A stretch of DNA of 23,011 nt, taken from positions 1-23,011 of IMG/VR virus record IMGVR_UViG_3300009703_003175. One strand, 5' to 3'. Made by a program: the position numbers and the translations under genes. The stretch is from a virus. Below the pieces are notes generated by a model that searched no databases, was not told the DNA's origin, and was given only the letters and a program-made list of their open reading frames with translations. Positions within the stretch are counted from its first letter, which is position 1; every line of letters starts with the position of its first letter. This document shows, piece by piece, positions 5,012-21,822 of the stretch.

Positions 5012-5809
5012 CTATCGAATGCAGTTGTAAGCATAACCAGAAGCCATTTCTGATAATGTAAACTGCTGATGTGCTAGATGCCATAACCAAGGTTCACGAT
5101 CAGGGTAGTCTAAACTTTCTATCATATCAATTTTATTTGCTACAGGATACGCCGCACATTCATTACCACATACCACAGGAATACCCATACATATGGCTTT
5201 TACAGCAACCATTGAATTGAAGGTTATTACACAGTAGGCATTTTTAAGATCTTCCTCTAGTGGTTTTTGACTTTTGTGTTTGTCAAATCCACTTAGTTGC
5301 GTAAGTCCGTTGACTGTTTTTACTTGTGGGTTCATAGGCTTATCTCTCACTACGATTTCTCTGCTTGTTTGCTGTTTTAAGGCGTCTAGCACACCGTTGA
5401 GCCATTGTTGTGCATCAAAGAACCACTCTATTGCTCCTGTAGGTGGACATACTATAATTTGTGTGCCAGTTGTTTGCCATGGCGCAAGATCTTGTGCAAA
5501 ATATTTTTCATATCTATCAGGCGTTTGCTCTGTGATACTAGAATTTGTGTGTGCATTTTTGGTTATTCTATACCAATTTGTTTTGTTGTTATGTCCCGGC
5601 AAAAAATATGCATGATCACAGAAGTAATATGTGTGACCTTTGCGTTTCATCATATCACCTGAACCTCTCAGTATGCCCCAGTAAAAATATTCGTCATCAA
5701 TCATAGGTTGATCGTTCGGAATAGGGTCTATAATTTTTCCATTAGTGCCTTTAGCCCAATGTTGCACAATGCCTTCTGTGGCTTTACGCATGGTCCTAAC
5801 GCAACGCAT
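5012..5809 (-). CDS. GT-B glycosyltransferase, capsule/Kdo-transferase-like (copy A)
   Basis: This is a paralogue of the upstream gene 5796-6587 and more distantly of 7423-8409 and 16708-17562. Shared features are a strand ending in VVRDKP (the place of RPHP in the other pair), a TFNSMVAVKAICMGIPVVC segment (NS...A...G.PV), and a C-terminal YPDREPWLWHLAHQQFTLSEMASG block. These resemble the nucleotide-sugar-binding half of capsule-synthesis GT-B proteins. The frame is open back to 5851, but AAGGA on the minus strand (5816-5820) is 6 nt before ATG 5809, giving a 14-nt overlap with the previous gene. ATG 5812 or 5791 remain possible. It is the last gene of a three-gene minus-strand unit and converges with the asparagine synthetase-like gene. 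Donor and acceptor are unknown. Confidence 0.72.
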   Translation of the reverse strand: MRCVRTMRKATEGIVQHWAKGTNGKIIDPIPNDQPMIDDEYFYWGILRGSGDMMKRKGHTYYFCDHAYFLPGHNNKTNWYRITKNAHTNSSITEQTPDRYEKYFAQDLAPWQTTGTQIIVCPPTGAIEWFFDAQQWLNGVLDALKQQTSREIVVRDKPMNPQVKTVNGLTQLSGFDKHKSQKPLEEDLKNAYCVITFNSMVAVKAICMGIPVVCGNECAAYPVANKIDMIESLDYPDREPWLWHLAHQQFTLSEMASGYAYNCIR

Positions 5810-6587
5810 CATACATCCTTTCGAACATGTCTTTAAATAGGCCCGATTCAATTTCTTCTTGCGTGTATTGATGCCAACTCAGTGTGGCCAACCAATCTTC
5901 ACGGTTGTCTGGATGCAGTGGTGTGCCAAAATTTTGTATAGTCTGCGATACAGGACTTGCAGGACAACGAGCATGGCAGTAAACAGGAATGCCTTCAATC
6001 AAGGCATCAATGGAGACCATAGAGCATGAAGTAACCACACAGTGTGCATTCTCAAGATCATCTGCAAGCGGTACATCAGCATATGCAGGTCCACTCTTAC
6101 CGTTTTTCCTTGGCTTATGTCTTACTTTAATTGGCATATCAGTTTTTGTGCGTAACCATGCAACAGTTTGCTGTTCCCAATCCCGCTGGCCAACGTAAGA
6201 ATTAATTGTATTAGAAGATGGTGCAACTAAAATATAATCACCTTTATTTTTCCTCCATGGCTTTATATTGATGTGTTGTATCCTATTACGCGGAAGATTT
6301 GGATAAACTTCCGTTACATGTATATCACTAAAACATATTCTCCAAAAATATTCTCCTTGCGGATTGACTGCCTCTTTCAAAGGATTCCATCTACCCCAAT
6401 ATGGCATGTCGCAAAATAACCAAGGCTGTTTGTTGTTTTTTAGATCTATTGCTCTATCATAGTTTCCCACAGCTAGTCCCCACATTGTTGGTATTCCTTT
6501 ATCATGATGATATTTCATTAAGGGTTTTAGTGTATACCACGCTTTTGAATCAGGCCCGTGACGATTGTTAATAATTTTAAGTTTCAC
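5796..6587 (-). CDS. GT-B glycosyltransferase, capsule/Kdo-transferase-like (copy B)
   Basis: This 263-aa protein belongs to the same four-member GT-B family. It has VRHKPRK near the middle, SCSMVSIDALIEGIPVYC (nucleotide-sugar-site helix and G.PV turn), and a C-terminal HPDNREDWLATLSWHQYTQEEIESG block matching PDR..WL...S...W...EI..G in the paralogues. The start is GTG at 6587, joined to the stop of the preceding GT-A gene by a 4-nt GTGA overlap, so translation is probably coupled. A small hairpin covers this start. The same GT-A then GT-B order with a 4-nt overlap recurs at 15920-17562 on the other strand. No signal peptide or membrane segment is visible, so it should act at the cytoplasmic face. 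Confidence 0.78.
   Translation of the reverse strand: MKLKIINNRHGPDSKAWYTLKPLMKYHHDKGIPTMWGLAVGNYDRAIDLKNNKQPWLFCDMPYWGRWNPLKEAVNPQGEYFWRICFSDIHVTEVYPNLPRNRIQHINIKPWRKNKGDYILVAPSSNTINSYVGQRDWEQQTVAWLRTKTDMPIKVRHKPRKNGKSGPAYADVPLADDLENAHCVVTSCSMVSIDALIEGIPVYCHARCPASPVSQTIQNFGTPLHPDNREDWLATLSWHQYTQEEIESGLFKDMFERMYDALR
5816..5820 (-). promoter_or_regulatory. Ribosome binding site deciding the start at 5809
   Basis: The minus strand reads AAGGA here, 6 nt before ATG 5809 and 3 nt before ATG 5812. It supports an internal start instead of the longest frame from 5851, which would overlap the upstream gene by 56 nt. Confidence 0.5.
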
Positions 6588-7396
6588 TGGATTTTATTCC
6601 AGTAATCGTTTTCATGCTTGATATAAATGTCAGTGCGTTTAGAATGGCCATCTATTTTTCTTTTGCCTTTTAAATGATCCATGTAAGCTCCTAATGGTGA
6701 ATTTATAAACACATGAACCCCAGGCCGATGTGGATGATCTTTAGATATATTGAAAGATTGCATGCCTTGACTTGTGTATTTTTGTAGCAACACCCAAAAT
6801 AGAAAGGAGTCATGATATTCATTTTCTTTAAACAATGAATCTGTCTGATACATATTTTGCCAATCCTCCATAAAATGCTTATTGTAATTAGATCGGGTGT
6901 CGTAGATTACAAACCCACACTCAGGATAAATTTTTTGTCTGCCTAGATATGCACAATAATGATCTTCTGGTAAGAGGCTCTCAATGAAACTTTCTGGAAC
7001 AGGTGAGTGGGTAACAACATCTGCATCCAACCAGACAACTAAGTCTGAGTCAGCATTGAGAGCCGCATGTGATACACAATATGATTTATGTGAAAATTTT
7101 ACAGCGTCCCACAAATATGAACGTTTGGGTTTTTTTTCTGTGCCTGGCTTTCGTCCATTAGCGTATGGATTGTTTGCATGTCTTTGTTTGAACACTCCAA
7201 GTTGGGGACATGCTTCATTAAGATCGATCCATTGGATTCTTTCACTATTATTTTTTTCAGTTGGTAATTGTTCATAGTAAACTTTTAATTTAATATTTTC
7301 TGGCCAATGTTTGTCAAATGTGTCTATCATTTTTTCACCATAATGATGATATCCAGCGTTTGACATAGTCGTGATAACCGTAATTGATGTTGGCAT
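6584..7396 (-). CDS. GT-A glycosyltransferase (pair member 1)
   Basis: This 270-aa protein has a GT-A layout: an N-terminal strand (ITVITTMSNAGYHHYG), a metal-binding WLDADV with DAD at 124-126, then YLGR (150-153), ECGFVIYD (159-166), HDSF (195-198) and a distinctive YMDHLKG (238-244). The paralogue at 15920-16711 shares HWP, DAD, LGR, GF, DSF and GDYMDHLKG in the same order, so the two clearly have one origin. It is the first gene of the minus-strand unit, and its ATG is only 26 nt from the divergent ATG at 7423. No Shine-Dalgarno sequence is seen in front. Sugar and acceptor are unknown. Confidence 0.82.
   Translation of the reverse strand: MPTSITVITTMSNAGYHHYGEKMIDTFDKHWPENIKLKVYYEQLPTEKNNSERIQWIDLNEACPQLGVFKQRHANNPYANGRKPGTEKKPKRSYLWDAVKFSHKSYCVSHAALNADSDLVVWLDADVVTHSPVPESFIESLLPEDHYCAYLGRQKIYPECGFVIYDTRSNYNKHFMEDWQNMYQTDSLFKENEYHDSFLFWVLLQKYTSQGMQSFNISKDHPHRPGVHVFINSPLGAYMDHLKGKRKIDGHSKRTDIYIKHENDYWNKIQ
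6586..6603 (-). repeat. Inverted repeat over the GTG start of the downstream GT-B gene
   Basis: ACTGGA and TCCAGT are separated by six A/T bases and form a perfect 6-bp stem that includes part of the GTG start at 6587. In the mRNA it would hide that start until ribosomes finishing the upstream gene open it, which suits translational coupling. A stem this short can occur by chance. Confidence 0.3.
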
Positions 7397-7422
7397 GCTA
7401 ATGACTATTTAAATAGCATATA
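7397..7422. promoter_or_regulatory. Divergent intergenic region with a 12-bp palindrome
   Basis: The 26 nt between two divergent start codons hold CTATTTAAATAG (7405-7416), a perfect palindrome. Each strand contains TTTAAATA, one base from the T4 late promoter box TATAAATA. It could therefore drive transcription both ways as a shared late promoter. Start codons lie 8 nt (minus) and 6 nt (plus) from the palindrome, so leaders would be almost absent. A CATATAAT box (7417-7424) overlaps the plus-strand ATG. Confidence 0.4.
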
Positions 7423-8409
7423 ATGAAAGTAGAGATATTTCGAAATACTGTAAAACGCAGAGGTAAGGGTGCTTCCTTCGAAATGATGAAAGCATGGCGT
7501 GAAGGCATAAAATCAGTTGGCGATGATCCTATATGGATAGAAGGAAAGCCTGATCCTGAAAAATGGATGGGAGATCCAAAAGAAAAAGTATCAATACATT
7601 TTGGTTATGGACCTGATAATGCTGGTGACTTTTTAAAAGGCAACCGAAAAAAAATTAGACAGTATCAAGAAAAAAATGGTGGAGTTACTATTGTGTTCGA
7701 TGGAGGACTATGGACTTCATTTGGCAATCGATCTTCGGATTGGAACAAACACTATTTCAGATGTGCCCTTTGGTCACCTATGCGTAATGGAAATTTCCTA
7801 AACGAAAACTCTCCTGGAGATAGGTGGCATCATATTGCTAAAACTTTTAACATTGAAAACAGACCATGGAAAAATTGTGGCAAATATATTATGCTTTGCA
7901 CACAACCAAAAGACAATTGGTCCATGGCGCAAAAAGATCCCTATGAGTGGGTTGATCAAGTGGTTGAAAAATTAAAAGGGGTGACAGATAAAACATTATT
8001 ACTGCGTCCACATCCGAACCATGCTGATAAATGTGCTGAAGATATTGGTAAACGTCATCCACAAATAAAAATTGCAGACATGACCAGAGGTGGAGGTATG
8101 TTTTATGATTATCGCTGGACATTTTTAGAGGAACTTAATGCATCCGATGTGCATTGTGCCTTAACACATAATTCTACTGCCGCTGTTGATGCCGCAACAT
8201 ACGGTGTCCCTGTCTTTATGACTTCGGACTTGTGCTTAGCTTGGGACATAGGATCATCTGATCTTGCTAAAGTTGAAACTCCACATGTTCCGGATAGGAC
8301 ACAGTGGCTGAACAACTTGGCTTATGCCAACTGGACTTTAGAAGAAGTACGAAATGGCACTGTATGGAAAAGATTTCGGCCTCACGTAGAACAAATGATC
8401 AATGAGTAA
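7423..8409 (+). CDS. GT-B glycosyltransferase, capsule/Kdo-transferase-like (copy C)
   Basis: This 328-aa protein is the longest member of the four-copy GT-B family and the closest to 16708-17562. Visible shared motifs are RPHP (195-198), HNSTAAVDA (249-257), GVPVF (261-265), PDRTQWL (290-296), NWTLEE (303-308) and a terminal WKRF. RPHP plus NS...A...GVPV resembles the donor-binding half of capsule-synthesis proteins of the KpsS/KpsC type. The relation is by motif only. It is the first gene of the long plus-strand series; its ATG follows the divergent promoter region and has no Shine-Dalgarno sequence. It overlaps the next gene by 8 nt. Confidence 0.78.
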   Translation: MKVEIFRNTVKRRGKGASFEMMKAWREGIKSVGDDPIWIEGKPDPEKWMGDPKEKVSIHFGYGPDNAGDFLKGNRKKIRQYQEKNGGVTIVFDGGLWTSFGNRSSDWNKHYFRCALWSPMRNGNFLNENSPGDRWHHIAKTFNIENRPWKNCGKYIMLCTQPKDNWSMAQKDPYEWVDQVVEKLKGVTDKTLLLRPHPNHADKCAEDIGKRHPQIKIADMTRGGGMFYDYRWTFLEELNASDVHCALTHNSTAAVDAATYGVPVFMTSDLCLAWDIGSSDLAKVETPHVPDRTQWLNNLAYANWTLEEVRNGTVWKRFRPHVEQMINE

Positions 8410-9136
8410 TTTAAAAGTGATACTGCCAGCTGCCGGTAAAGGATCTAGATTAAACTTGCCTTATCCAAAAGAAATATTAAGGTTGAACAATGATGATGCA
8501 CTAATAGATTATAGTTTCAACTTTTTTAGAGATTATGGAAGAAAGGACGTTGAATTCATTATTGTTGTTAATGAAAACAAAACTGAAATAATAGAATATC
8601 TATCAAAATATAAAGATAGATTTAACATATCGTTTACATTCCAAAATCCAAATGAACATGAATACACAGGAGCTATTAAAAGTGCAAAACATTTATTTGG
8701 TGAACACAACTTAGTGTTGTTACCTGATACAATAATGACTTTGCATCCAAACGAAAATCTTTATGATCTAGTTCAATCTGCACTTACAGAAACTGGCTTT
8801 ACATTCCTTTACAAAAAAGAACAAGATCAAAATATTCTTAAAACAAAAGGATGTGTGCATGTGGATCAAAATTCTATAGTATCTTTGTATGAGGACAAAC
8901 CAGAAACTAACTTGTCTCAGTACAATGCATTTTGGTGTGGCTTTGCTTTTAGAAAGAGAACATTTGATATGTGCATGCAGTACATGGAAAAGTCAACACT
9001 AAAACTAAAAATAGATCACAACGAAATACAAAGAACTCCAATATATTCGTCCAAAGCAATCCAGGTTGAAGATTATGTAGATCTTGGCACATGGAAAGAA
9101 ATACGACGATTACTGCAAAATGAAAATAATAACTGA
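8402..9136 (+). CDS. Sugar-phosphate nucleotidyltransferase (RmlA/GlmU-like)
   Basis: This 244-aa enzyme should couple a sugar 1-phosphate with an NTP to give a nucleotide sugar for the neighbouring glycosyltransferases. The N-terminus PAAGKGSRL (9-17) with PKE (22-24) is the signature of this fold. LLPDT (106-110) supplies the metal-binding Asp, and VEDYVDLGTW near the C-terminus matches the second metal site area (D.GT). It is shorter than typical RmlA (about 290 aa) and has no C-terminal hexapeptide acyltransferase repeats, so it is a single-domain enzyme. It is not KdsB-like, which begins with a different motif. It overlaps the genes on both sides (8 and 17 nt). The sugar used cannot be told from sequence. 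Confidence 0.87.
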   Translation: MSNLKVILPAAGKGSRLNLPYPKEILRLNNDDALIDYSFNFFRDYGRKDVEFIIVVNENKTEIIEYLSKYKDRFNISFTFQNPNEHEYTGAIKSAKHLFGEHNLVLLPDTIMTLHPNENLYDLVQSALTETGFTFLYKKEQDQNILKTKGCVHVDQNSIVSLYEDKPETNLSQYNAFWCGFAFRKRTFDMCMQYMEKSTLKLKIDHNEIQRTPIYSSKAIQVEDYVDLGTWKEIRRLLQNENNN

Positions 9137-9689
9137 TTGTGACGGAGTTTTATTAGACTGGATATTTGCTTTCGACGTGTGGATGGCTGAACAAGGATAT
9201 CAAAAACTTCCGGATGCTGACCAACATTTTAAACAGACACAAAGATATGCTTTATCAGAACAGGATGCTTTAACTTTTGTAAGAAAATTTAATGAATCCG
9301 GTAGTGTTGGATTCATTCCAGCATATAAAGATGCTGTGGAATACGTTAATAAGTTTGCATCTAAAGGATATAGATTTGAAGTTATCAGCAGTTTACATAT
9401 GGACAAATACGCACAAAAATTAAGAATAACTAATCTTAAACATTTATTTGGAGATGTCTTTGATTACATTGACTGTAGTTTGGATTTCACCAAAGGTAAA
9501 AAAAACATATTATCCAAACGTTACGAACACACTGGATATATTTGGTTGGAAGATTCTATAGCACATGCTGAAGCAGGTGATGAAATAGGCATGCAAACTT
9601 ACATATTTGACCATCCTTATAATAAAAGTTATACTGGACGTAGAGTAAAAAACTGGAAGGAACTTTATGACGCCGCATCTAGAGGCTAG
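9120..9689 (+). CDS. HAD-superfamily phosphatase (copy 2), 5'-nucleotidase-like
   Basis: This 189-aa HAD hydrolase is a paralogue of the gene at 3-575. It has TDCDGVLLDW near the N-terminus (nucleophile DxD), an ISS motif near residue 92, a Lys-rich TKGKK region, and IWLEDSIAHA (motif IV) before DHPYN. The frame is open back to a TTG at 9084, but ATG 9120 puts the DxDGV at the usual distance from the N-terminus and overlaps the nucleotidyltransferase by 17 nt. It overlaps deoD by 23 nt, so the two are probably made together. A nucleoside monophosphate would be a fitting substrate, feeding the phosphorylase next door. A sugar phosphate is the alternative. Confidence 0.83.
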   Translation: MKIITDCDGVLLDWIFAFDVWMAEQGYQKLPDADQHFKQTQRYALSEQDALTFVRKFNESGSVGFIPAYKDAVEYVNKFASKGYRFEVISSLHMDKYAQKLRITNLKHLFGDVFDYIDCSLDFTKGKKNILSKRYEHTGYIWLEDSIAHAEAGDEIGMQTYIFDHPYNKSYTGRRVKNWKELYDAASRG

Positions 9690-10353
9690 ATTAGGAGATT
9701 ATGCAGACACTGTATTGATGCCAGGTGATCCGTTGCGGGCAAAATGGATTGCAGATACATATCTCGATGACTGTAAACAAGTTAACGCTGTGAGAAACTG
9801 TCTTGGTTATACAGGCACTTACAAAGACAAAAAAATCTCTGTACAGGCAAGTGGCATGGGTCAACCTTCAAGTTCGATCTATGTGGAGGAACTTTTTAAC
9901 ATTTATAACGTGCAAACAATTATTAGGGTAGGTAGTTGTGGAGCCATCGCAAAGCATTTAAGCATCGGTGATATAGTGGTTGCTTTAACAGCTAGCACTG
10001 ACAGCGCCATGGCAAAAAATTTTATTCCAGACTTCCAATTTTCTCCATGTGTTACATTAAACCTTTTGGAAAAATTTAAAACACATTGTCCTGGATGTTT
10101 TATTGGCGGGGTCACTGCAAACGATTATTTTTATCAACCCAACCCTAACTGGTGGAAAGATCATCAAGCAATGGGCGTATTAGCAGTAGACATGGAAACT
10201 TATATGCTGTATGCCTTGGCAAATAAATTTAATAAAAGTTGTTTAAGTGTAAACACAGTGTCAGATCATCTTGATGGTGCACACACAAATTTATCACCTT
10301 CAGAAAGAGAAACTAGTTTTACAAGGATGGTAGAAAGTGCGTTGTCATTATGA
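9667..10353 (+). CDS. deoD: Purine nucleoside phosphorylase, DeoD type
   Basis: This 228-aa enzyme splits purine (deoxy)nucleosides with phosphate into base and (deoxy)ribose 1-phosphate. The match to the hexameric bacterial type is close: TPH (2-4, His4 reaching the neighbouring subunit), MPGDPLRAKWIA (phosphate site, G20 and R24), R43, IRVGSCG (R87, S90), VDMET (174-178, ribose site, with Asp where E. coli has Glu179) and TVSDHL with the catalytic Asp at 200. E. coli DeoD has 239 residues, so this is full length. The gene starts inside the HAD gene (23-nt overlap) and joins the next by ATGA. It is unusual inside a glycan island and looks like a nucleotide-scavenging auxiliary gene. Confidence 0.94.
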   Translation: MTPHLEARLGDYADTVLMPGDPLRAKWIADTYLDDCKQVNAVRNCLGYTGTYKDKKISVQASGMGQPSSSIYVEELFNIYNVQTIIRVGSCGAIAKHLSIGDIVVALTASTDSAMAKNFIPDFQFSPCVTLNLLEKFKTHCPGCFIGGVTANDYFYQPNPNWWKDHQAMGVLAVDMETYMLYALANKFNKSCLSVNTVSDHLDGAHTNLSPSERETSFTRMVESALSL

Positions 10354-11051
10354 AAATTTGTGTGTGTATTCCTAGTAGAGGAAGATCAAAATTTGTAGAA
10401 AGGCTGGTCAAATCAGCATACAAAAACTGTAATAATAAAAATAATGTAATTGTAAAATATTATCTTAATGAAGATGATGATCAAATAGATTATTACAAAG
10501 ACCAATTGAAAATGATGAAAAAGAAACACGGTGATGGTGTCCAGTATCAAATTGGGCCAGATCAAAACACAGTGTATAGTTGGAACAAACTTGCTGAATC
10601 TGTCGAAGCTGATTTTTACATGTTAGCAGGCGATGAGGTTCAATTTGTTACTAAAGATTGGGATACAAAAATCTTCGCAGTAAAAGAACAATGGCCTGAT
10701 GGAATTTTTTGTGTGGGGGTCTATGATGGTCGGGACTGGCGTAAAAATAATTGTACAACTCCAGTGGTTACCAAGGAATGGGGCCATGCATTAGGTTATT
10801 ATTTCAATCCTGTCTTTTGGCATTGGCAAATAGACAAATACACTGGAGAACTTGCCATGTCGATAGACAGATTTATTTTCCTTGAAACTGTTTGTGTAAA
10901 AATGAAAAAAATTAAAGATATTACTGGCATGAGAAATAGAAAACAAGGTGTGTTTGATCGTGACGAATATATGTATGATAAAATGATACAACTGTATTTT
11001 AATACAGATCAAAATCGATTAATAGAGGCATGCGATGCTGTCAAAGAATGA
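10350..11051 (+). CDS. GT2-like glycosyltransferase, PSRGR family (copy 1)
   Basis: This 233-aa protein has the start of a GT-A fold, with CIPSRGR (7-12 region) after the first strand, then KYYLNEDD, and YMLAGDEVQF (about 90-99) where the metal-binding acidic residues are expected. The paralogue at 14614-15288 shares PSRGR, FYLN.DD, SWN.(I/L)AES, MLVGDDAEF, DWD.K, PDGIF, HPVITQEW/TPVVTKEW and RIDR(Y/F)IF(M/L)E in order. Such small PSRGR proteins occur in T4-like marine phage glycan clusters. It is coupled to deoD by an ATGA overlap and to the methyltransferase by 17 nt. The sugar is unknown, and the family assignment is at fold level only. Confidence 0.75.
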   Translation: MKICVCIPSRGRSKFVERLVKSAYKNCNNKNNVIVKYYLNEDDDQIDYYKDQLKMMKKKHGDGVQYQIGPDQNTVYSWNKLAESVEADFYMLAGDEVQFVTKDWDTKIFAVKEQWPDGIFCVGVYDGRDWRKNNCTTPVVTKEWGHALGYYFNPVFWHWQIDKYTGELAMSIDRFIFLETVCVKMKKIKDITGMRNRKQGVFDRDEYMYDKMIQLYFNTDQNRLIEACDAVKE

Positions 11052-11658
11052 AGCAGACAAATGGTTTGCTGAACATATTGAATCAAATATAAAAATTTTT
11101 CCTAATAAAGATATAGAACAGCATTTACGCTATGCATTATCAAAAGTTACCACTGAAAATTTGTTTTTAGAATTTGGTGTAAGAGATAGGAAAACATTTA
11201 ACGTTATCAAAGAATATGCAAATGTTGTGCATGGTTTTGATTCATGGATAGGAATGCCATGGCCATGGCAACTAACAAGATTGGTTGAGCCTGAGAAAAC
11301 AGGCCCGCACTTGGCTGCAAAAACTATTCCGCAAACAGACGACACACAGATATTTTGGTCTGGATTGTTTGAAGACACACTACCAAAATTTATAAAAAAA
11401 TACGATCATCCAATAAGTTTTTTACATATAGATTCAAACTATTACAGATCTGCCACACAAGTATTATCTTTGCTTGACACAAATATTACCAAGGACACAA
11501 TTATAGTGATTGGCCAATGCCATGCTTTTGAACAAGCAGATCTTAAAAAATGGAGTAATGTGTGGAACCATGGACTTTTAGCTTGCAAAAATTGGGGACG
11601 TAATATACAATTTTTTAGTAGAAATCATTTTTTACAAGCGGCAGGAAAAATAAAATGA
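11035..11658 (+). CDS. TylF/MycF-like SAM-dependent methyltransferase
   Basis: This 207-aa protein looks like the macrocin O-methyltransferase family, which methylates sugar hydroxyls. It has FLEFGVRDRKT (44-54, SAM loop), GFDSWIGMP (67-75) and SFLHIDSNYYRSA (128-140), where the family has a metal-binding Asp in an HIDGDLY-type motif. A later Asp usual in this family may be replaced around GQCHAFEQAD. It is unlike the two FkbM-type enzymes in this window and is thus a third, separate methyltransferase. The start lies inside the previous gene (17-nt overlap), and the end is joined to the GT25-like gene by ATGA. Confidence 0.72.
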   Translation: MLSKNEADKWFAEHIESNIKIFPNKDIEQHLRYALSKVTTENLFLEFGVRDRKTFNVIKEYANVVHGFDSWIGMPWPWQLTRLVEPEKTGPHLAAKTIPQTDDTQIFWSGLFEDTLPKFIKKYDHPISFLHIDSNYYRSATQVLSLLDTNITKDTIIVIGQCHAFEQADLKKWSNVWNHGLLACKNWGRNIQFFSRNHFLQAAGKIK

Positions 11659-12284
11659 AAGCATTTATAATATATCTGAAAGAAGTGCAAGCCACTGTTG
11701 ACTCAGCATTAGAATGCAAGCGAACAGCAAGGCAATACGGATTAGATGCATGGCTCATGGAGGGGTTTACTCCATCACGTGCAGATAAATTTATTCAAGA
11801 GCAGAATTTGAAGCCATATCTACCTGGGCCAAAACTTTACAATATTAAATGGCAGAAAGGTGGTGTACGCGGTTGTATGATATCACATTATCATGTATGG
11901 CAAAAGTGTATTGAATTGGATCAACCAATTGTTGTGCTTGAACATGATTCTAGAGTTGTAAGCGACACTTATCTCCAAGATTTCGAGGATGTGTTACATC
12001 TTGATGGATATAGATTTAAAAAGGATCCAAATATTGGAAAACTCCCTATTGTTGAAGATTTTGTAAATGTGCGTAAAGGCGAGAATCAACTAATGGGCAC
12101 ATATGGTTATGTTATAAAACCACATGCGGCAAAAAGATTAATCCAAGGTGCACATGAAGATGGGATCACAGCATCAGATATGTTTGTAAAAGACAAATAT
12201 GTACGCATCCAAGTTGTTAGACCACGTGCTGTTGAAGTCAACAGTCAGGATAGTTTGACCGGAGATCGCACATTCTATATATAA
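11655..12284 (+). CDS. GT25-like glycosyltransferase (LPS biosynthesis type)
   Basis: This 209-aa protein matches family 25 glycosyltransferases, often beta-galactosyl- or glucosyltransferases of lipooligosaccharide. Evidence: an N-terminal AFIIYLKE strand, RGCMISHYHVWQKC (72-85), VVLEHDSRV (93-101, ExD-type acidic motif), then GTYGYVIKPHAAKRL (148-162) and a late SDMF. The order is that of the family, and the length is near the usual 200-260. It starts with ATGA overlapping the methyltransferase, and ends 4 nt before the epimerase. No membrane anchor is seen. Confidence 0.85.
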   Translation: MKAFIIYLKEVQATVDSALECKRTARQYGLDAWLMEGFTPSRADKFIQEQNLKPYLPGPKLYNIKWQKGGVRGCMISHYHVWQKCIELDQPIVVLEHDSRVVSDTYLQDFEDVLHLDGYRFKKDPNIGKLPIVEDFVNVRKGENQLMGTYGYVIKPHAAKRLIQGAHEDGITASDMFVKDKYVRIQVVRPRAVEVNSQDSLTGDRTFYI

Positions 12285-12288
12285 TTGC

Positions 12289-13002
12289 ATGCACATCACA
12301 GTTACTGGATCGCATGGTTTTATAGGCAGTCACCTCAGGCAACATTTGTCCAAAGACAATGAACTTAATTGTTGGGACACAAAGATACAAAAAAACATTG
12401 CTGATTTTCATATTGATCGAACAGATTTAATAATTCATCTTGCCGCACTGGCGGGTATCAGAGAATCCTTTGAACAAGCGGATGACTTTTGGAAAACAAA
12501 TGTTGAATATACGAAGCATGTTTTTTCTGTTGCTGAGAAGAGCAACACTAGAGTCATATATGCATCGTCATCTGCATGTAAAAAATGGTTTGGCAATCCT
12601 TACTCAATTTCAAAATATGTAAATGAATTTATTGCTCCACCTAATTCTGTAGGACTAAGATTTTCAACTGTATGGGGCCAAGGCGCAAGAGGCGACATGT
12701 TGGTACCACAGATTCAAAATAAAACTTTAAAGTTTGCTACACAACACAAAAGAGATTTGATACATGTGACTGATGTTGTAAGTGCAATACAAACAATTAT
12801 TGATCATCCAGAACAAACAGGTGTGTTCGAAGTAGGCACAGGAAAAACAATTAAAGTAGATGAACTTGTTGCGTACAACGGACTTGATGTGCCAATACAG
12901 CATGGTCAAGATTATGAACTAGAAGAAAATTTATTGCCTTCACACAGACTACGTGCATTAGGATGGGCACCAAAAAAAGATATAATGGACAGCAAATTAT
13001 GA
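12289..13002 (+). CDS. Short NAD-dependent sugar epimerase/dehydratase (SDR)
   Basis: This 237-aa extended-SDR protein changes a nucleotide sugar. The Rossmann loop TGSHGFIGSH (6-15) binds NAD(P), LAAL follows near 51-54, SSS (93-95) supplies the catalytic Ser region, and Y105-SISK109 is the YxxxK pair. LRFSTVWGQGARGDM and LIHVTDV match substrate-site segments of the family. Typical members have about 310 residues; this one is shorter, chiefly in the C-terminal substrate domain, and no frameshift is visible. The longer epimerase at 13631 is not a close copy. The downstream methyltransferase is coupled by ATGA. Which epimer is made is unknown. Confidence 0.86.
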   Translation: MHITVTGSHGFIGSHLRQHLSKDNELNCWDTKIQKNIADFHIDRTDLIIHLAALAGIRESFEQADDFWKTNVEYTKHVFSVAEKSNTRVIYASSSACKKWFGNPYSISKYVNEFIAPPNSVGLRFSTVWGQGARGDMLVPQIQNKTLKFATQHKRDLIHVTDVVSAIQTIIDHPEQTGVFEVGTGKTIKVDELVAYNGLDVPIQHGQDYELEENLLPSHRLRALGWAPKKDIMDSKL

Positions 13003-13634
13003 TATTATTAGACGATGGGTACTGGATCCCCAATGGTGATGATCCTGTGCATCATATTGGAGGCAATGTCAAAGAACATGATGGAAAAATACATAGCGAA
13101 GTGTTAAAACTTTGCAAAAATAAAGGACACATGTTAGACATAGGAGGAAACGTAGGACGTTGGTCAAATCATTATGCAAATATTTTTAAAAAAGTTACTG
13201 CTTTTGAACCAGCAGATTACAACATTGAGTGTTTTAAAAAAAATACGGAAGACAAAACAAATATTACATTGCATGAATATGGATTATCAGATAGATCAGG
13301 AAAAGGCAATCTTTCAGTAGCCATTCCAGAACATTTGGGTTCAACTAGAGTCCATCCTAGTGATGATGGAAATATTATTTTAAAAACACTTGATTCACAC
13401 AGTTATGATGACATTGATGTATTGAAAGTAGATGTTGAAGGACTAGAGATACCAGTGCTTAATGGCGCTAGAGAAACTTTAGAGCGTTGTTCTCCTATAA
13501 TTGTAATAGAAAGATGTGTGTTAAATTCAACTGCATATGGTTATAGTAAAAACGATAGTCACAAGTTGTTAGAAGAACTGGGATATTCTCGTGCAGTAAA
13601 AATTACCAGAGACTGCATCTATATAAAAAAATGA
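12999..13634 (+). CDS. FkbM-type SAM methyltransferase (copy 2)
   Basis: This 211-aa methyltransferase has MLDIGGNVGRW (45-55) for SAM, VTAFEP (66-71), LKVDVEGLE (132-140) and VIER (159-162), the clear FkbM series. The start chosen is ATG 12999, which overlaps the epimerase stop as ATGA, the commonest junction type in this island. The in-frame ATG at 12963 would add 12 basic residues with no known counterpart and a 40-nt overlap. The gene lies between two epimerases and is joined to the second by ATGA, so it probably methylates a sugar made by them. It is more typical of FkbM than the copy at 2726. Confidence 0.88.
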   Translation: MILLDDGYWIPNGDDPVHHIGGNVKEHDGKIHSEVLKLCKNKGHMLDIGGNVGRWSNHYANIFKKVTAFEPADYNIECFKKNTEDKTNITLHEYGLSDRSGKGNLSVAIPEHLGSTRVHPSDDGNIILKTLDSHSYDDIDVLKVDVEGLEIPVLNGARETLERCSPIIVIERCVLNSTAYGYSKNDSHKLLEELGYSRAVKITRDCIYIKK

Positions 13635-14635
13635 AAATTTTAGTAACAGGGTCACTTGGCTTTGTTGGATCACATCTAGCCAAAAGATATTATTATCAAG
13701 GGCATGACGTTGTTGGCATCGACAATGGAGTTGGTGGTTATGATGATAATCTTACTGAAGTGCAAACTTATAAAATAGACTGTTGTGATCAATCCAACTT
13801 AGATTTATTATTTTCAAAACAAAAATTTGATCTAGTTATTCACGCCGCCTGTACTGCATATGAAGGACTTAGTGTGGTATCGCCTGTATTTGTAACACGC
13901 AATACGTATGACGCTACTGTAAATGTGGTTACATCTTCTATCAAACATAATGTTAAAAAATTTGTTTATATGAGTTCAATGGCTAGATATGGCAAACAGA
14001 CACCACCTTTCACAGAGGACATGAAGCCTGCACCAGAGGATCCATACGGTATTGCAAAAGTGGCTGCGGAGGACACAGTGAAATGTTTATGTGATGTGAA
14101 TGGAATACAATGGGCTATTGCTGTACCACACAACATATATGGACCTAACCAAATTTATAATGACCCTTTTAGAAACGTTGTATCAATATTTTTACATAGA
14201 AATTTACAAGGCAAGCCACCTATAATATATGGCGATGGTGAACAAAAACGTTGTTTTTCCTACATCGATGATACCCTACAAATATTCGATGAAATATGCT
14301 TTGGCACAAAAGCAAATGCTGAGACATTTAATATAGGACCAGATGAAGATTATGTTACAATAAATGAATTGGCCAAATTGTGTGCTAATGCCACCGGTTA
14401 CAATGGCATGCCTACATATATGAAAGGCAGACCAAAAGAGGTAAAGTATGCAACTTGTTCTTCAGATAAAATTAGAAAATTTTTTAATTACAAAACACAA
14501 GTAGATCTAAAGCAAGGAATCAATAACACATTGAATTACATAAAAGCAAGAGGGATAAAAAAATTCAATTATTCATTACCAATAGAAATAGACAATGAAA
14601 ATACTCCGCAAACATGGACCAAACAACTAATATAA
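13631..14635 (+). CDS. NAD-dependent nucleotide-sugar epimerase/dehydratase (GalE/WbpP-like)
   Basis: This 334-aa protein is a full-length extended SDR. TGSLGFVGSH (6-15) is the dinucleotide loop, GIDNGVGG follows strand 2, HAAC lies near 71-74, MSSM (114-117) provides the catalytic Ser, and Y139-GIAK143 is the YxxxK pair. VPHNIYGPNQ and GDGEQKRCFSYIDD (201-214) match UDP-sugar 4-epimerases of the GalE/WbpP/Gne group, so a UDP-hexose or UDP-uronic acid is the likely substrate. It is joined by ATGA to the methyltransferase and overlaps the next gene by 22 nt. Confidence 0.9.
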   Translation: MKILVTGSLGFVGSHLAKRYYYQGHDVVGIDNGVGGYDDNLTEVQTYKIDCCDQSNLDLLFSKQKFDLVIHAACTAYEGLSVVSPVFVTRNTYDATVNVVTSSIKHNVKKFVYMSSMARYGKQTPPFTEDMKPAPEDPYGIAKVAAEDTVKCLCDVNGIQWAIAVPHNIYGPNQIYNDPFRNVVSIFLHRNLQGKPPIIYGDGEQKRCFSYIDDTLQIFDEICFGTKANAETFNIGPDEDYVTINELAKLCANATGYNGMPTYMKGRPKEVKYATCSSDKIRKFFNYKTQVDLKQGINNTLNYIKARGIKKFNYSLPIEIDNENTPQTWTKQLI

Positions 14636-15288
14636 CGCTGTGCTGTCCTAGTAGAGGACGCCCCCAATTTGCTAAACGTATGCAAGACAGTGCTTTGGCC
14701 ACTGCAAAATATCCTGATAAAGTAAAAGTAAAATTTTATCTCAACAAAGATGATCCTCAACTTAAAAATTACAAGCTTAAGGACTTTGATGTTGGCATAG
14801 ATAGGAGCACAGTCATGAGTTGGAATGTTATAGCAGAAAGTTCTCCTAGTAGAATGTACATGTTGGTAGGTGATGATGCTGAATTTATTACACAAGATTG
14901 GGATAAGAAGTTCTTGGATCAATATAAAAAATATCCTGACGGAATATTCATGATAGGCACAGCCACAGGAAAAAAACATGGCCTCATACATAAAACATCA
15001 CCACATCCTGTCATCACCCAAGAGTGGCGTAATACGCTAGGATATTTTTGGCCTGTGCAGTTTCATCATTGGTGCTTAGACAACTACACAAATGATCTTG
15101 CAAAAAGAATAGACAGATATATTTTTATGGAGGACGTATTAATAAAAGTAAAAAAAATTACTGAAGACGATACAGCAAAACGTATCCGCACAGACGCTGT
15201 GCATCTCAGAGACAAATGGGTATATGAAAAAACAAAAGAATGTTATTTAGACTTTGATGTTTTAAGATTAAAGATGGCATGCAAATGA
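14614..15288 (+). CDS. GT2-like glycosyltransferase, PSRGR family (copy 2)
   Basis: This 224-aa protein is a paralogue of 10350-11051. It carries CCPSRGRPQF (11-20), FYLNKDD (41-47), TVMSWNVIAES (66-76), MLVGDDAEF (83-91) with the acidic metal site, HPVITQEW (131-138) and RIDRYIFMED. The two copies can be aligned from end to end with few gaps, so this is an old duplication within the island. It overlaps the epimerase end by 22 nt and is joined to the SGNH gene by ATGA. No membrane segment is present. Donor and acceptor are unknown. Confidence 0.75.
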   Translation: MDQTTNITLCCPSRGRPQFAKRMQDSALATAKYPDKVKVKFYLNKDDPQLKNYKLKDFDVGIDRSTVMSWNVIAESSPSRMYMLVGDDAEFITQDWDKKFLDQYKKYPDGIFMIGTATGKKHGLIHKTSPHPVITQEWRNTLGYFWPVQFHHWCLDNYTNDLAKRIDRYIFMEDVLIKVKKITEDDTAKRIRTDAVHLRDKWVYEKTKECYLDFDVLRLKMACK

Positions 15289-15905
15289 ATCTAGCAATAT
15301 TTGGAGACAGTTGGCCAGTTGGTGTGGAACTTAACAAAGGTGAACTGCCTTTTGGTGATATTTTACATAAAAAATTAGGAACAAAAAATTATTACAATGA
15401 GTCACAACAAGGAAGCACAGTGGATTCATTGATACTACAACTAGATAATTTTGCTAAGAAAAACATATCTGACTGTGTATGTGTATTTTTTATAACTAAT
15501 CCTGCAAGATATTTGTATTTCCAAAATGGCAAAGAAAGGGTTTTACGTCCAACAGGGGATAAAAGTGAACTTGCAAAGTTTTATTTTGGCCATGTGCAGT
15601 CTGATGATCTAGATTATCACAAAGCAAACATATCTGTACTTGCACTTCATAGGATGTGTGATAAATTAAATTACAAAGATTATTACATGGAAGGATGGAC
15701 TAACATAGATTGGAAATACACTGGTATAGATCAAACAAAATTTCTAGGAAAAAGTGCAACAGAATTATTTGGTGCAGATACAAATAATAAAACACTTGAA
15801 CTTGTAAAGTTTCAAAACAACCAATACATTACTCCAAACAAATATCATCCAAACAGCAAAGGACATGAACTAATAGCAGAACACTTGTATAATTTTATAA
15901 GTTAA
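15285..15905 (+). CDS. SGNH/GDSL-hydrolase-like protein
   Basis: This 206-aa protein has the start of an SGNH esterase, IFGDSW (5-10, Ser9 nucleophile), an FITNPARY segment (69-76) that could carry the Asn of the third block, and a C-terminal KYHPNSKGHELIAEH (186-200) matching the His block. In most members that block is DxxH, but here the place of Asp is N185, so the charge relay is unusual. Family members remove acetyl or acyl groups from sugars or lipids. The start is placed at ATG 15285 (ATGA overlap with the previous stop); ATG 15279 would add two residues. The ordinary role here would be deacetylation or acyl transfer on a glycan. Confidence 0.72.
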   Translation: MNLAIFGDSWPVGVELNKGELPFGDILHKKLGTKNYYNESQQGSTVDSLILQLDNFAKKNISDCVCVFFITNPARYLYFQNGKERVLRPTGDKSELAKFYFGHVQSDDLDYHKANISVLALHRMCDKLNYKDYYMEGWTNIDWKYTGIDQTKFLGKSATELFGADTNNKTLELVKFQNNQYITPNKYHPNSKGHELIAEHLYNFIS

Positions 15906-15919
15906 TATAATATAAAAAT
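15906..15919 (+). promoter_or_regulatory. Possible -10 box just before a start codon
   Basis: TATAAT at 15906-15911 is followed by 8 A/T bases and then ATG 15920. The string to the ATG is almost the same as that at 21833-21849. A -35 box is poor (TTGTAT at 15885-15890, 15-nt spacer). A TATAAAAATA string also resembles a T4 late box. Transcription from it would begin at or next to the ATG. Confidence 0.3.
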
Positions 15920-16711
15920 ATGGCGTCTTACACAATTACAACAACTTGGGGACAAACACATTGGGACATCTATGCAAAAAGATGTGTAGAATCAATTGGT
16001 AAACATTGGCCAGATGACGTTGTAAAATATTTTTATCCTGATGACGTGTCACAGCAAGTTACAATTGCTAATTCATATTATTTTGATCTTAAACAGTCAC
16101 AACCTGAATTGCAAGAATTTATCGATAGAAACCAAAACAATGCACTGGTAAAAGAACGTATGCACAAGCCATTGCGTTCTGCATTCGAATATGATGTAAT
16201 TAGATTTTGCTACAAAGTTTACTGCATGTTAGATGCCGCAGAGCGTTGCACAACAGACATATTAATTTTTGTTGATGCAGATACTGTGACGTATAAAGAT
16301 GTGCCTACATCCTGGCTGGATCATATTGCTCCTATTGAAAAATTTTCTACATTTCTTGGCAGGCCAAAAAAAGGATTTTCTGAGACTGGATTTATAACTT
16401 TTAACATGACTTTGCCAGAGTCCAAAACATTTTTTGATCGGTGGCGAGAATATTACACAAAAGATCTTTGGGTAAACTTACAAGGCTTTACAGATTCATT
16501 TACATATGATGCCGCAAGGCTGGATACCACTGATAGAAAATTAGATAATGATCTAAATGATGGTAGATATCTTGGATATAGAGGATCTAAGCATCCATTT
16601 GTTAATTCAGAGCTAGGAGATTATATGGATCATCTCAAAGGTGAGCGAAAGGACATCCAATCATCCGTAGAAGATATGAAAGTTAAAAGGCAAGATGATC
16701 ACTGGCAATGA
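15920..16711 (+). CDS. GT-A glycosyltransferase (pair member 2)
   Basis: This 263-aa GT-A protein is a paralogue of the minus-strand gene 6584-7396. It has a similar N-terminal strand (YTITTTWGQTHWDIYAK), IFVDAD with the DAD metal site at 119-121, FLGR (145-148), ETGFITFN (155-162), TDSF (191-194), and HPFVNSELGDYMDHLKG (225-241), which is the clearest shared block. The C-termini also agree (a DDHWQ or NDYWNKIQ end). It is joined by ATGA to a GT-B gene, just as its paralogue is joined by GTGA to one. It follows the SGNH gene after a 14-nt A/T-rich gap that may hold a promoter, and has no Shine-Dalgarno sequence. Confidence 0.82.
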   Translation: MASYTITTTWGQTHWDIYAKRCVESIGKHWPDDVVKYFYPDDVSQQVTIANSYYFDLKQSQPELQEFIDRNQNNALVKERMHKPLRSAFEYDVIRFCYKVYCMLDAAERCTTDILIFVDADTVTYKDVPTSWLDHIAPIEKFSTFLGRPKKGFSETGFITFNMTLPESKTFFDRWREYYTKDLWVNLQGFTDSFTYDAARLDTTDRKLDNDLNDGRYLGYRGSKHPFVNSELGDYMDHLKGERKDIQSSVEDMKVKRQDDHWQ

Positions 16712-17562
16712 AGATAGCAGTGTTTCCAAAGACTTGCGCCATAGCGGGCAGGCCGGTGATGGCAGCTTTTATAAAGTCTCTCCAAGGAGAAGACTACGTC
16801 ATATGCGAAAATCACGAAAGACCAGAAGCAGATGTAGTTGTTATGTGGTCATGGCTTCTTGGAATGTACGGCCGTGATGCAATATACAATCACTACAAAA
16901 ACACAAAAACAAAGTTTTTAATATTAGAAGTAGGAGCACTTGCACGTAATCACTCTTGGAAGATTGCAATTGGTGGTATAAACCGTGACGCCGATTTTGC
17001 CAATTCCTCCGTTGATGATAAAAGACTATCATTGTTTAACTTGCATACAAGACCTTGGCGCAATAATGGAAAGTATATAATTGTGTGCGGACAAAATGAA
17101 AGATCACTTGCATGGGACCAAGGTACAACATCCGATTGGGCCCAATCAATGTTCAAATGGATTAGAAGGTATACCGAAATGCCAATTTGGTTTAGACCAC
17201 ATCCAAGATTTCCTGTATCCATCAAAGAATCAAAGAGCAACAATGTGCGTATCAGCACGCCGAAAAAAATTGGAAAAATAGATGAAGTAGACTTTGATAG
17301 TGCTTTGAAACACGCTTATGCTGTGGTCAATTACAACTCAAATCCAGCAATTGAATCTGTGTTGGCTGGAGTGCCTGTGTTTGTAGGTGAATCATCTTTG
17401 TGTTGGTCTGTTGGCAATGAAATAGGCACTAATCTTAATACACCTGCCACGCCCGATCGAACCGAGTGGCTGAAACAGATAAGTTATACTGAATGGTTTA
17501 CAAAAGAAATAGGAAATGGAATACCATGGAAGAGACTGAAACAAAATTTAATCGATGGGTAA
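16708..17562 (+). CDS. GT-B glycosyltransferase, capsule/Kdo-transferase-like (copy D)
   Basis: This 284-aa protein is closest to 7423-8409. It has RPHP (163-166), NYNSNPAIES (208-217), GVPVF (221-225), LCWSVG, PDRTEWL (249-255), then SYTEWFTKEIGNG and WKRL at the end. These align with RPHP, HNSTAAVDA, GVPVF, LAWDIG, PDRTQWL and NWTLEEVRNG of copy C. The N-terminal domain is about 40 residues shorter than in copy C, so acceptors may differ. It is translationally joined to the GT-A gene in front (ATGA). The gene for a small membrane protein begins inside its last 37 nt. Confidence 0.78.
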   Translation: MKIAVFPKTCAIAGRPVMAAFIKSLQGEDYVICENHERPEADVVVMWSWLLGMYGRDAIYNHYKNTKTKFLILEVGALARNHSWKIAIGGINRDADFANSSVDDKRLSLFNLHTRPWRNNGKYIIVCGQNERSLAWDQGTTSDWAQSMFKWIRRYTEMPIWFRPHPRFPVSIKESKSNNVRISTPKKIGKIDEVDFDSALKHAYAVVNYNSNPAIESVLAGVPVFVGESSLCWSVGNEIGTNLNTPATPDRTEWLKQISYTEWFTKEIGNGIPWKRLKQNLIDG

Positions 17563-18345: not shown

Positions 18346-18849
18346 ATGAAACTGTTTGATTTTCAAAAATATGGAGCAAAAGAGATGGATGTACCATCCG
18401 GCGAAGTCTTTATTCATAATATCCAAGATGACGAGATAGAAGGTGTTAATTTAGATCAATATGTAGGAGATAGAAATGTTATTATTATTGGCATCCCCGG
18501 TGCATTTACTCCCACTTGCACTGACAAGCATCTTCCAGGATTTGTAAAACACGAACAACAGTTTTATAAAAAAAACGTAGATGAAATAATTTGTTTAAGT
18601 GTAAATGATCCACATGTCATGATGGCATTCTCAGATTATATTAATCAGGATGGCTCTAGAATTGTAATGGCTGCAGATCCTTTTGGTGAAGTAAGTGAGC
18701 AAATTGGCACGTTGACTGACATGGGATTGTTAGGACAAAGAACAAAAAGATTCGCTGCCATTGTTAAAAATGGCAAGGTAGTTGATATGCTAATTGATGA
18801 AAGAGGATTAGATGTTTCAACTGCAGAAAATTGTTTTAAAAATTTATAA
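18346..18849 (+). CDS. Peroxiredoxin, Prx5 type
   Basis: This 167-aa thiol peroxidase reduces peroxides with a peroxidatic cysteine. The active-site motif is IPGAFTPTCTDKHLPGF with T55 and C58, the Prx5/AhpE-like form. R132 in LGQRTKRFAAIV is in the position of the conserved Arg. The Cys at 163 near the end is not at the usual resolving position, so whether the enzyme is 1-Cys or 2-Cys is open. No glutaredoxin domain is fused, so host thioredoxin or glutaredoxin would recycle it. The gene is oddly placed after glycosyltransferases. CTAAAAATA before the ATG resembles late-promoter boxes of T4-like phages but is weak. The next gene overlaps by one base (TAATG). Confidence 0.92.
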   Translation: MKLFDFQKYGAKEMDVPSGEVFIHNIQDDEIEGVNLDQYVGDRNVIIIGIPGAFTPTCTDKHLPGFVKHEQQFYKKNVDEIICLSVNDPHVMMAFSDYINQDGSRIVMAADPFGEVSEQIGTLTDMGLLGQRTKRFAAIVKNGKVVDMLIDERGLDVSTAENCFKNL

Positions 18850-20327: not shown

Positions 20328-20358
20328 ATTGCTGAGTCTACTTGGGCTCAGCAATTTT
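20328..20358 (+). terminator. Intrinsic terminator
   Basis: ATTGCTGAGTC (20328-20338) pairs with GGCTCAGCAAT (20345-20355) through 11 bp with one G-T pair around a 6-nt loop, and is followed by three more T. It comes 43 nt after the stop of the 109-aa protein gene. It works only for the plus strand, as the other side lacks a T run. Confidence 0.75.
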
Positions 20359-20363
20359 GGAGA
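20359..20363 (+). promoter_or_regulatory. Ribosome binding site deciding the uvsW start
   Basis: GGAGA lies 7 nt before TTG 20371 and directly after the terminator. It supports TTG 20371 as the start of uvsW, against TTG 20329, which falls within the terminator stem and has no ribosome site. Confidence 0.6.
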
Positions 20364-20370
20364 TCCATTC

Positions 20371-21822
20371 TTGCCGCACTGCAAAATAATAGTCAAAGAT
20401 GAAGTAAATGTAAAACTAGATGGCTTAGATCTTGTAACCAGAAGAAAATTAACAAATAAATTCAAATATGAGATACCAGGCGCACGTTTTATGCCTGCGG
20501 TAAAACTTGGTCGATGGGATGGCACTGTGTCATTTTTCACGCAAGGGGGATTAACTTTTGTTAATTTACTTGACGACATCGTACCAATACTTGAAGAAAG
20601 TAATTATACATTTGACTTAGAAGATAAAAGGGAAACCTGGAACTTATCGTTTGATCCTGTTGATAAAAATACTTTTGCTGACGTGACATGGCCCACAGGA
20701 CATACACATGAAGGACAATCGATTGTCTTACGTGATCATCAAGTTGAAGTTATTAATAATTTTATTAACAATCCACAGTGTCTGCAGGAAGTTGCCACCG
20801 CAGCTGGTAAAACAATAATTACAGCCGCACTAAGCAAATTAATTGAACCATATGGTAGAAGCATTATAATTGTTCCGAATAAATCATTGGTCACACAAAC
20901 AGAAGAAGATTATAAAAATATGGGATTGGATGTCGGAGTTTATTTTGGTGACAGGAAGGAGCCGGGCCATACCCACACAATTTGCACATGGCAATCTTTA
21001 AACATACTGGAAAAGAAACGACAAAATGCAGAAGATAATCTTATTGAAGTGTTCAAGAGAGATGTAGTATGTGTAATTGTTGATGAGGTACATATGGCAA
21101 AAGCGGATGTTTTGCGTAGATTACTTACGAATGTGTATGGTTATGTTCCTATCAGATGGGGACTAACTGGAACAATTCCAAAAGCAGATTATGAATATAA
21201 GTCAATCCACGTTGCACTTGGCGAAGTAATTAATAGAGTTTCAGCAGTCGAACTCCAGGAAAAAGGTCTATTGGCAAAGTGTAATATTGAGATACTACAA
21301 CTTTGGGACTATGTGGACTACAAAAACTATCGTGAAGAACAAACACATCTTGTTACAAAAAAAACAAGAATAAATTATATCGCAAGGATGATTGAACAAA
21401 TGCGTACATCAGGAAACACACTTGTACTTGTGGATCGAGTGAAGTCAGGCGAAATGTTATCTGAAACTATTATTAATTCTGTGTTTGTGCGTGGGGCAAC
21501 TAAGGCAGATGAAAGAAAAGAACATTATGATGATATTAAAACATCAAATGACAAAGTAATTGTTGCCACGTATGGAGTAGCTGCTGTTGGTATAAACTTG
21601 CCACGCATATTCAATCTTGTACTAGTCGAACCAGGAAAGTCATTTGTTAGAGTGATTCAATCCATAGGAAGAGGAATACGTAAAGCCCAGGACAAAGACT
21701 TTGTGCAAGTGTGGGACGTGTGCTCCACAGCAAAGTTTTCTAAACGTCATCTTACAGAACGCAAAAAGTTTTATCGTGAAGCACAATATCCTTTCACTGT
21801 GACAAAGGTTGACTATCAATAA
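20371..21822 (+). CDS. uvsW: UvsW-type SF2 DNA helicase (TTG start)
   Basis: This 483-aa ATP-dependent helicase corresponds to T4 UvsW (503 aa), which unwinds branched DNA and R-loops and shifts replication from origin-based to recombination-based starts. Counting from TTG 20371: motif I ATAAGKT (142-148), motif II DEVH (238-241), motif III LTGT (265-268), and motif VI QSIGRGIR (430-437). The N-terminal part with GRWDGTVSFF resembles the UvsW N-terminal domain. The start is placed at TTG 20371 with GGAGA 7 nt in front. The longer frame from TTG 20329 begins inside a terminator hairpin. The terminator implies that uvsW is read by read-through or from a promoter not seen. This gene is the main evidence that the contig is T4-like. 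Confidence 0.93.
   Translation: MPHCKIIVKDEVNVKLDGLDLVTRRKLTNKFKYEIPGARFMPAVKLGRWDGTVSFFTQGGLTFVNLLDDIVPILEESNYTFDLEDKRETWNLSFDPVDKNTFADVTWPTGHTHEGQSIVLRDHQVEVINNFINNPQCLQEVATAAGKTIITAALSKLIEPYGRSIIIVPNKSLVTQTEEDYKNMGLDVGVYFGDRKEPGHTHTICTWQSLNILEKKRQNAEDNLIEVFKRDVVCVIVDEVHMAKADVLRRLLTNVYGYVPIRWGLTGTIPKADYEYKSIHVALGEVINRVSAVELQEKGLLAKCNIEILQLWDYVDYKNYREEQTHLVTKKTRINYIARMIEQMRTSGNTLVLVDRVKSGEMLSETIINSVFVRGATKADERKEHYDDIKTSNDKVIVATYGVAAVGINLPRIFNLVLVEPGKSFVRVIQSIGRGIRKAQDKDFVQVWDVCSTAKFSKRHLTERKKFYREAQYPFTVTKVDYQ

Follow-up and report, generated by a model that had tools for sequence, protein, structure and literature searches.

The 23,011-base metagenomic record IMGVR_UViG_3300009703_003175 of a marine bacteriophage, the whole of which is called the window here, carries two pairs of glycosyltransferase (GT) genes in opposite orientation, GTA1-GTB1 on the minus strand and GTA2-GTB2 on the plus strand, each consisting of a GT-A gene followed by a GT-B gene. 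The initial annotation had described these pairs, and we confirmed their coordinates, their strands and the 4-nt overlap at both junctions (GTGA and ATGA). Its inference that one two-gene cassette had been copied or acquired twice was rejected, as the GT-A and GT-B trees demonstrate conflicting histories of the partners. Because GTB1b comes after GTB1, three genes make up the inverted island on the minus strand, GTA1-GTB1-GTB1b, and the window carries all four GT-B subfamilies analyzed in this study, GTB1, GTB1b, GTB2, and GTB3. The positions are as follows.

5012..5812, minus strand: GTB1b, third gene of the inverted island, KpsC-fold GT-B with PPT and RDKP; likely ATG start at 5812, giving a 17-nt overlap with GTB1
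5796..6587, minus strand: GTB1, KpsC-fold GT-B with a GTG start, PSSxT and RHKP, without QXXXD and without HP
6584..6587, minus strand: GTGA stop/start overlap of GTA1 and GTB1
6584..7396, minus strand: GTA1, GT-A fold glycosyltransferase, most likely the core GT-A, with the sole GT-A of a second virus group as its ortholog
6665..6685, minus strand: YMDHLKG motif in GTA1, with D-H-x-K-G invariant family-wide
7406..7415, no strand assigned: 10-bp palindrome TATTTAAATA, 9 bp ahead of the GTA1 start, candidate bidirectional promoter element
7423..8409, plus strand: GTB3, KpsC-fold GT-B divergent from GTA1, with QPKDN and RPHP
7903..7917, plus strand: QPKDN in GTB3, with Asn at the nucleophile position and Asp one residue before it
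15920..16711, plus strand: GTA2, GT-A fold glycosyltransferase, most likely an extra paralog, seen in no viruses other than those of the window's type
16622..16642, plus strand: YMDHLKG motif in GTA2
16708..16711, plus strand: ATGA start/stop overlap of GTA2 and GTB2
16708..17562, plus strand: GTB2, KpsC-fold GT-B with QxxxS and RPHP
17092..17106, plus strand: QNERS in GTB2, with Ser where KpsC and WbbB have the nucleophile Asp

Compared with phage records at the DNA level, the whole window gave zero matches. At the protein level, relatives are abundant among uncultivated viruses (at least 593 stretches in a search with a tighter GT-A alignment) and rare among isolates, where they were found in Pelagibacter phage Mosig, one podovirus record, and some Caulobacter phages. 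The two GT-A proteins align along their length, as had been claimed (266 columns, 30% identity, E 5e-42, z 61 against shuffled sequences), and all four GT-B proteins are homologous by pairwise alignment against shuffles, with z of 38 for GTB1-GTB1b, 41 for GTB2-GTB3, and 28 for GTB1-GTB2. The pair partners GTB1 and GTB2 are not mutual nearest relatives within the window. The order GT-A then GT-B recurs in many marine virus contigs: on the same strand it was observed for 49 of 87 unique GT-As, compared with 20.9 +/- 3.5 (maximum 33) when labels were shuffled within loci, and this adjacency is thus commoner than chance. The 4-nt overlap itself was considered as a sign of special coupling and rejected, since it is common in the window (5 of 24 same-strand junctions); about half of the GT-A/GT-B pairs in relatives (48/94) overlap in the same way. 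Within the A1 lineage defined below, the distances of GTA1 and GTB1 proteins are correlated (Mantel r 0.73).

Three GT-A groups are distinguished: A1 (GTA1 and its close relatives), A2 (the GTA2 lineage), and A34 (the second virus group). In the careful GT-A tree, A1 joins A34 with support of 97/94, and A2 lies elsewhere, among paralogs mostly without a GT-B neighbor. A forced GT-A clade of GTA2 and A34 was rejected by the approximately unbiased (AU) test (p-AU 1e-7), and a clade of A1 and A2 was also rejected. The GT-B tree unites the partners of A2 with those of A34 (100/99) and places the partners of A1 with GTB1b in the opposite half; forced clades of the A1 partners with the A34 partners (p-AU 1.9e-12) and with the A2 partners (p-AU 2.1e-13) were both rejected. 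Thus, in the tree check set beforehand, GTA1 grouped with the A34 GT-A and GTB2 with the A34 partners, which is the refuting outcome for a common cassette.

The exchange of partners is also visible in mean distances: that between A1 and A34 is 1.87 for the GT-As and 4.62 for their GT-B partners, and that between A2 and A34 is 3.26 and 1.73, respectively. As the GT-A tree is unrooted and the topological conflict alone depends on its root, a comparison of distances from one virus group to the other was added. For the GT-B subfamilies, these distances are 2.51 (GTB1), 2.30 (GTB1b), 1.72 (GTB3), and 1.76 (GTB2). The distance from GTA1 to A34, 1.86, is inside this ortholog range of 1.72-2.51, whereas GTA2 is beyond it at 2.97-3.21, suggesting that GTA1 is most likely the ortholog of the A34 GT-A and GTA2 an extra paralog.

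The conserved unit is larger than a pair, and comprises one core GT-A and four KpsC-fold GT-Bs in shuffled gene order. To survey it, the six proteins of the window served as queries against 20 whole virus records, and each place was assigned to its best query. Of the 16 whole records that belong to the two groups, 13 (A1-type G001, G003, G005, G006, G007, and G009, and A34-type G011-G017) have exactly one each of GTB1, GTB1b, GTB2, and GTB3; the other three (G002, G004, and G008, A1-type or A2-type) are fragments of 43.5-46.5 kb. The number of GT-As is one in each of the seven A34 records and from one to four in the A1-type records. A subfamily is held twice in only 4 of 126 loci, the loci being overlapping contigs and therefore non-independent.

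In the A34 group, the GT-A precedes GTB2, GTB1b and GTB3 are in the same operon, and GTB1 has the opposite direction, headed in five of seven records by an SGNH-like gene. Loci of this group in which such an SGNH-hydrolase-like gene takes the place of the GT-A ahead of GTB1 are L130-L134, L119, and L125. In A1-type viruses, GTB1-GTB1b follow GTA1, and GTB3 often runs divergently from GTA1. GTB2 lies at a distance of about 7-57 kb; it adjoins GTA2 in the window, G003, G008, and G009 and is not beside any GT-A in G001, G005, and G006. The pairs themselves are sometimes interrupted, by a kinase and a cupin gene between GTA2 and GTB2 in L019 and by an SGNH-like open reading frame between GTA1 and GTB1 in L011. 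The two inserted genes of L019 (6783-8137) are GHMP-kinase-like and cupin genes, of heptose-pathway type by eye.

The products of a pair are both glycosyltransferase folds, as the initial annotation had proposed, judging from predicted models of GTA1 and GTB1. The GTA1 model (mean predicted local distance difference test score, pLDDT, 94.6) matches retaining GT-As of the GT8/GT6 type, namely GlyE, glycogenin, LgtC, and the PBCV-1 capsid transferase, over about 190 residues with Z of 13-14.6, the best match being GlyE (Z 14.6). GTA1 combines this GT-A fold with the DxD metal motif of GT8-type enzymes at positions 124-126; both D124 and D126, as well as a C-terminal His, are invariant in an alignment of 38 diverse GT-As. 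Its identity to these enzymes is about 10-13%, and neither GTA1 nor GTA2 matches the GT8 family model PF01501 at E <= 1. None of the six proteins (two GT-A and four GT-B) is above the cut-off for any Pfam model, a PHROGs search with them gave only weak matches to families with no known function, and a PDB sequence search with GT-A found nothing. The YMDHLKG tail, described earlier as shared by the pairs, is indeed present in both GTA1 and GTA2. It was rejected as a cassette signature, because D240, H241, K243, and G244 of this region are invariant across the same 38 proteins; in such enzymes, this tail probably forms the C-terminal metal/phosphate site.

The GTB1 model (pLDDT 89.9) has the two-domain fold of the retaining β-Kdo (3-deoxy-D-manno-oct-2-ulosonic acid) transferases KpsC (GT107) and WbbB (N-terminal domain, GT99) along its whole length. 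All 11 PDB chains matched at E <= 0.001 are KpsC or WbbB (best E 2e-5), and the superposition on E. coli KpsC (6mgc) covers 223 residues with Z 12.3 and a root mean square deviation of 4.7. In KpsC and WbbB, the Asp of the QXXXD motif forms a covalent Kdo adduct and the HP motif binds cytidine monophosphate (CMP) (PMC10148158, PMC9587256, PMC12887879); nearly all activity is lost in KpsC Asp160 variants (PMC10148158), and this covalent mechanism has been described as unique among transferases so far (PMC12887879). When the phage GT-B family is aligned to KpsC, the Gln and the HP are in register. The phage proteins differ from KpsC and WbbB in being shorter, with about 10-14% identity, and they score below the cut-off of the capsule synthesis family PF05159 (11.6 bits for GTB2, the best window member, and 19.9 for the best relative, L028, versus 20).

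Each GT-B subfamily has its own signature at the active-site positions: QxxxS with RPHP in GTB2 and its A34 relatives, QPxDN with RPHP in GTB3, PSSx(T/S) with RxKP in GTB1, and PP(T/S) with R(D/E)KP in GTB1b. In this alignment register, the nucleophile Asp of QXXXD is in none of the four subfamilies, being replaced by Ser or Asn or lost with the motif; intact QXXXD was seen only in relatives L003 and two L028 genes. GTB2 and GTB3 keep the Gln of QXXXD and the (K/R)XHP CMP motif of KpsC and WbbB, whereas GTB1 and GTB1b have RxKP and have lost the CMP-binding His. Since the signatures differ by subfamily, the paired GT-Bs belong to different classes and are unlikely to perform the same reaction, and GTB1 and GTB2 probably catalyze different ones. 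The suggestion that each pair works as a unit for two successive sugar transfers is weakened by these differences and by the split or partnerless pairs in relatives. The 90-kb virus record L028 (G010), in which two of the seven to eight KpsC-fold GT-Bs have an intact QXXXD, would be useful for rooting the family. Several proteins of the giant algal Tetraselmis virus 1 also have the fold of GTB1 in BFVD, some of them annotated as capsule biosynthesis.

The surrounding genes encode GT25-type and GT8-like transferases, sugar epimerases, FkbM and TylF-type methyltransferases, a nucleotidyltransferase, an asparagine-synthase-like protein, a 2-oxoglutarate (2OG) oxygenase, and a phosphorylase, and the region ends near a UvsW helicase gene. 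One GT8-like gene (563-1292) is split by a one-base frameshift near 655; the gene may be broken, or the shift may come from a sequencing error. A nucleoside phosphorylase (9667-10353) and a peroxiredoxin (18346-18849) also lie inside the glycan locus. The UvsW helicase (20329-21822) is nearest, at 50-54%, to those of jumbo phages of Sinorhizobium, Agrobacterium, and Pseudomonas, and not to pelagiphages. The palindrome TATTTAAATA ahead of GTA1 is kept in most loci of the window's type, even with a different gene upstream. Besides the window, it was noted in L006, L007, L008, L010, L013, L020, L026, L037, L048, L049, and L123, preceding GTB1 in the last of these, where the GT-A is absent. The T4 late promoter TATAAATA is absent from the whole window, so that the palindrome is no more than a candidate element, a candidate promoter of the inverted island.

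We conclude, with a probability of about 0.7, that each of the two pairs is its own arrangement of genes from a common conserved toolkit, to which a GT-A has been added, and that they are not copies of one cassette. This reading starts from the observed homology, conflicting trees, one-each copy number, folds, and active-site substitutions. Marine tailed phages of at least two groups would keep a core GT-A and one each of the four GT-Bs, and their gene order would have been shuffled, so that the core GT-A precedes GTB2 in one group and GTB1-GTB1b, as an inverted island, in the window's group, where GTB2 stands behind the extra GTA2 or behind unrelated genes. The products may act as successive transferases assembling one conserved oligosaccharide, in an order and from donors that we can only propose: the GT-A would be a retaining enzyme that transfers a hexose-type sugar from a nucleotide-sugar, the donor of GTB2 and GTB3 would be of the CMP type, with no covalent intermediate like that of KpsC, and GTB1 and GTB1b would use another donor. 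The glycan would either remodel the host surface polysaccharide or decorate the virion, these being the most likely targets of the locus. Several points weigh against this reading. The 20 surveyed records were chosen for carrying GT-As, and the records are metagenomic and mostly incomplete; those of L028, L120, L081, and L054, with 3-8 GT-Bs, show no clean one-each fit. The quick trees have long branches, the tested clades coming from the careful ones. The fold match is that of the GTB1 model, with the signature positions of the other GT-Bs taken from a sequence alignment whose match to KpsC is weak (E 0.09).

The same gene order, the 4-nt overlap, the homologous GT-As, and the correlated partner distances within lineages are what one would expect of a two-gene cassette duplicated or acquired twice, each copy performing the same two successive transfers. 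Given the AU rejections, the origin of the GT-Bs from different subfamilies with different signatures, and relatives in which either pair is split by other genes or GTB2 is alone, we consider such a history extremely improbable. A very old duplication of the pair with hidden paralogy would have GTA1-GTB1 and A34-GTB2 arise together at the root, followed by the loss of one GT-A from each group. The GT-A tree is unrooted, and the topological conflict would vanish if it were rooted on the GTA1 branch. Such a duplication remains unlikely, as the GTA1-A34 distance is at the ortholog level whereas the GT-B subfamilies differ by 4.0-4.9, the A34 GTB1 is headed by an SGNH-like gene and not by a GT-A remnant, and reciprocal losses would be required.

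The absence of the QXXXD nucleophile from all four subfamilies, the translational coupling to GT-A, and the presence of Gap1/Asp1 chains low in the GTB1 fold list are compatible with the paired GT-Bs being inactive pseudo-transferases that serve as acceptor-binding or stabilizing subunits of the GT-A, in the manner of Gap-type proteins or other GT-B partners without catalytic activity. This role is doubtful. The substitutions are invariant yet subfamily-specific, a pattern more in line with altered chemistry than with decay; the RPHP nucleotide motif is retained in GTB2 and GTB3; and GTB3 and GTB1b are found without an adjacent GT-A. Moreover, a nucleophile is not required by inverting CMP-sugar transferases that carry (K/R)XHP (for the sharing of the motif, see PMC12887879). 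A different target is suggested by the presence in the window of nucleotidase-like HAD genes and the nucleoside phosphorylase. Phage glycosyltransferases often act on DNA, and the enzymes could add two sugars in succession to the phage's own modified bases. The neighboring genes make DNA glycosylation less likely, and in fact very improbable, because the GT25, epimerase, FkbM methyltransferase, and nucleotidyltransferase genes are of surface-glycan types, the 2OG oxygenase match is of the general PF13640 type, no base-modification enzyme was identified, and the fold matches are capsule and lipopolysaccharide enzymes.

Among known systems, the locus resembles the host recognition cluster of pelagimyophages and cyanomyophages, marine phages of the T4 type whose variable region is rich in GT genes and for which remodeling of the host O-chain against co-infection has been proposed (PMC7029224). 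Pelagibacter phage Mosig has one GT-A and two GT-B relatives. The likeness to pelagimyophages is in the GT-rich region, whereas jumbo phages have the nearest relatives of the window's UvsW. Neither the four GT-B subfamilies nor their retention in single copy nor the KpsC fold is described in the passages of PMC7029224 that were consulted. A literature search for KpsC-like enzymes in phages found no paper. As far as the searched literature shows, three features are new: the retention of one GT-B per subfamily, the exchange of partners, and the fixed replacement of the nucleophile motif in four different ways.

Phage glycan loci are usually pictured as hypervariable bags of host-derived genes. 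We tentatively propose, as an idea that may well prove wrong, that four ancient KpsC-fold GT-B lineages with their own fixed QXXXD replacements, together with one GT-A, form a five-enzyme assembly line kept in single copy and in shuffled order by many uncultivated marine phages, and that these lineages are new GT families without Kdo double-displacement chemistry. The retention of five transferases, one of each, across deeply diverged marine viruses would mean that some phages depend on a definite oligosaccharide, making the structure of this glycan and its target a direct experimental question. The GT-Bs would be natural variants of the KpsC/WbbB fold, showing how it may be used when its Asp is replaced in several ways.

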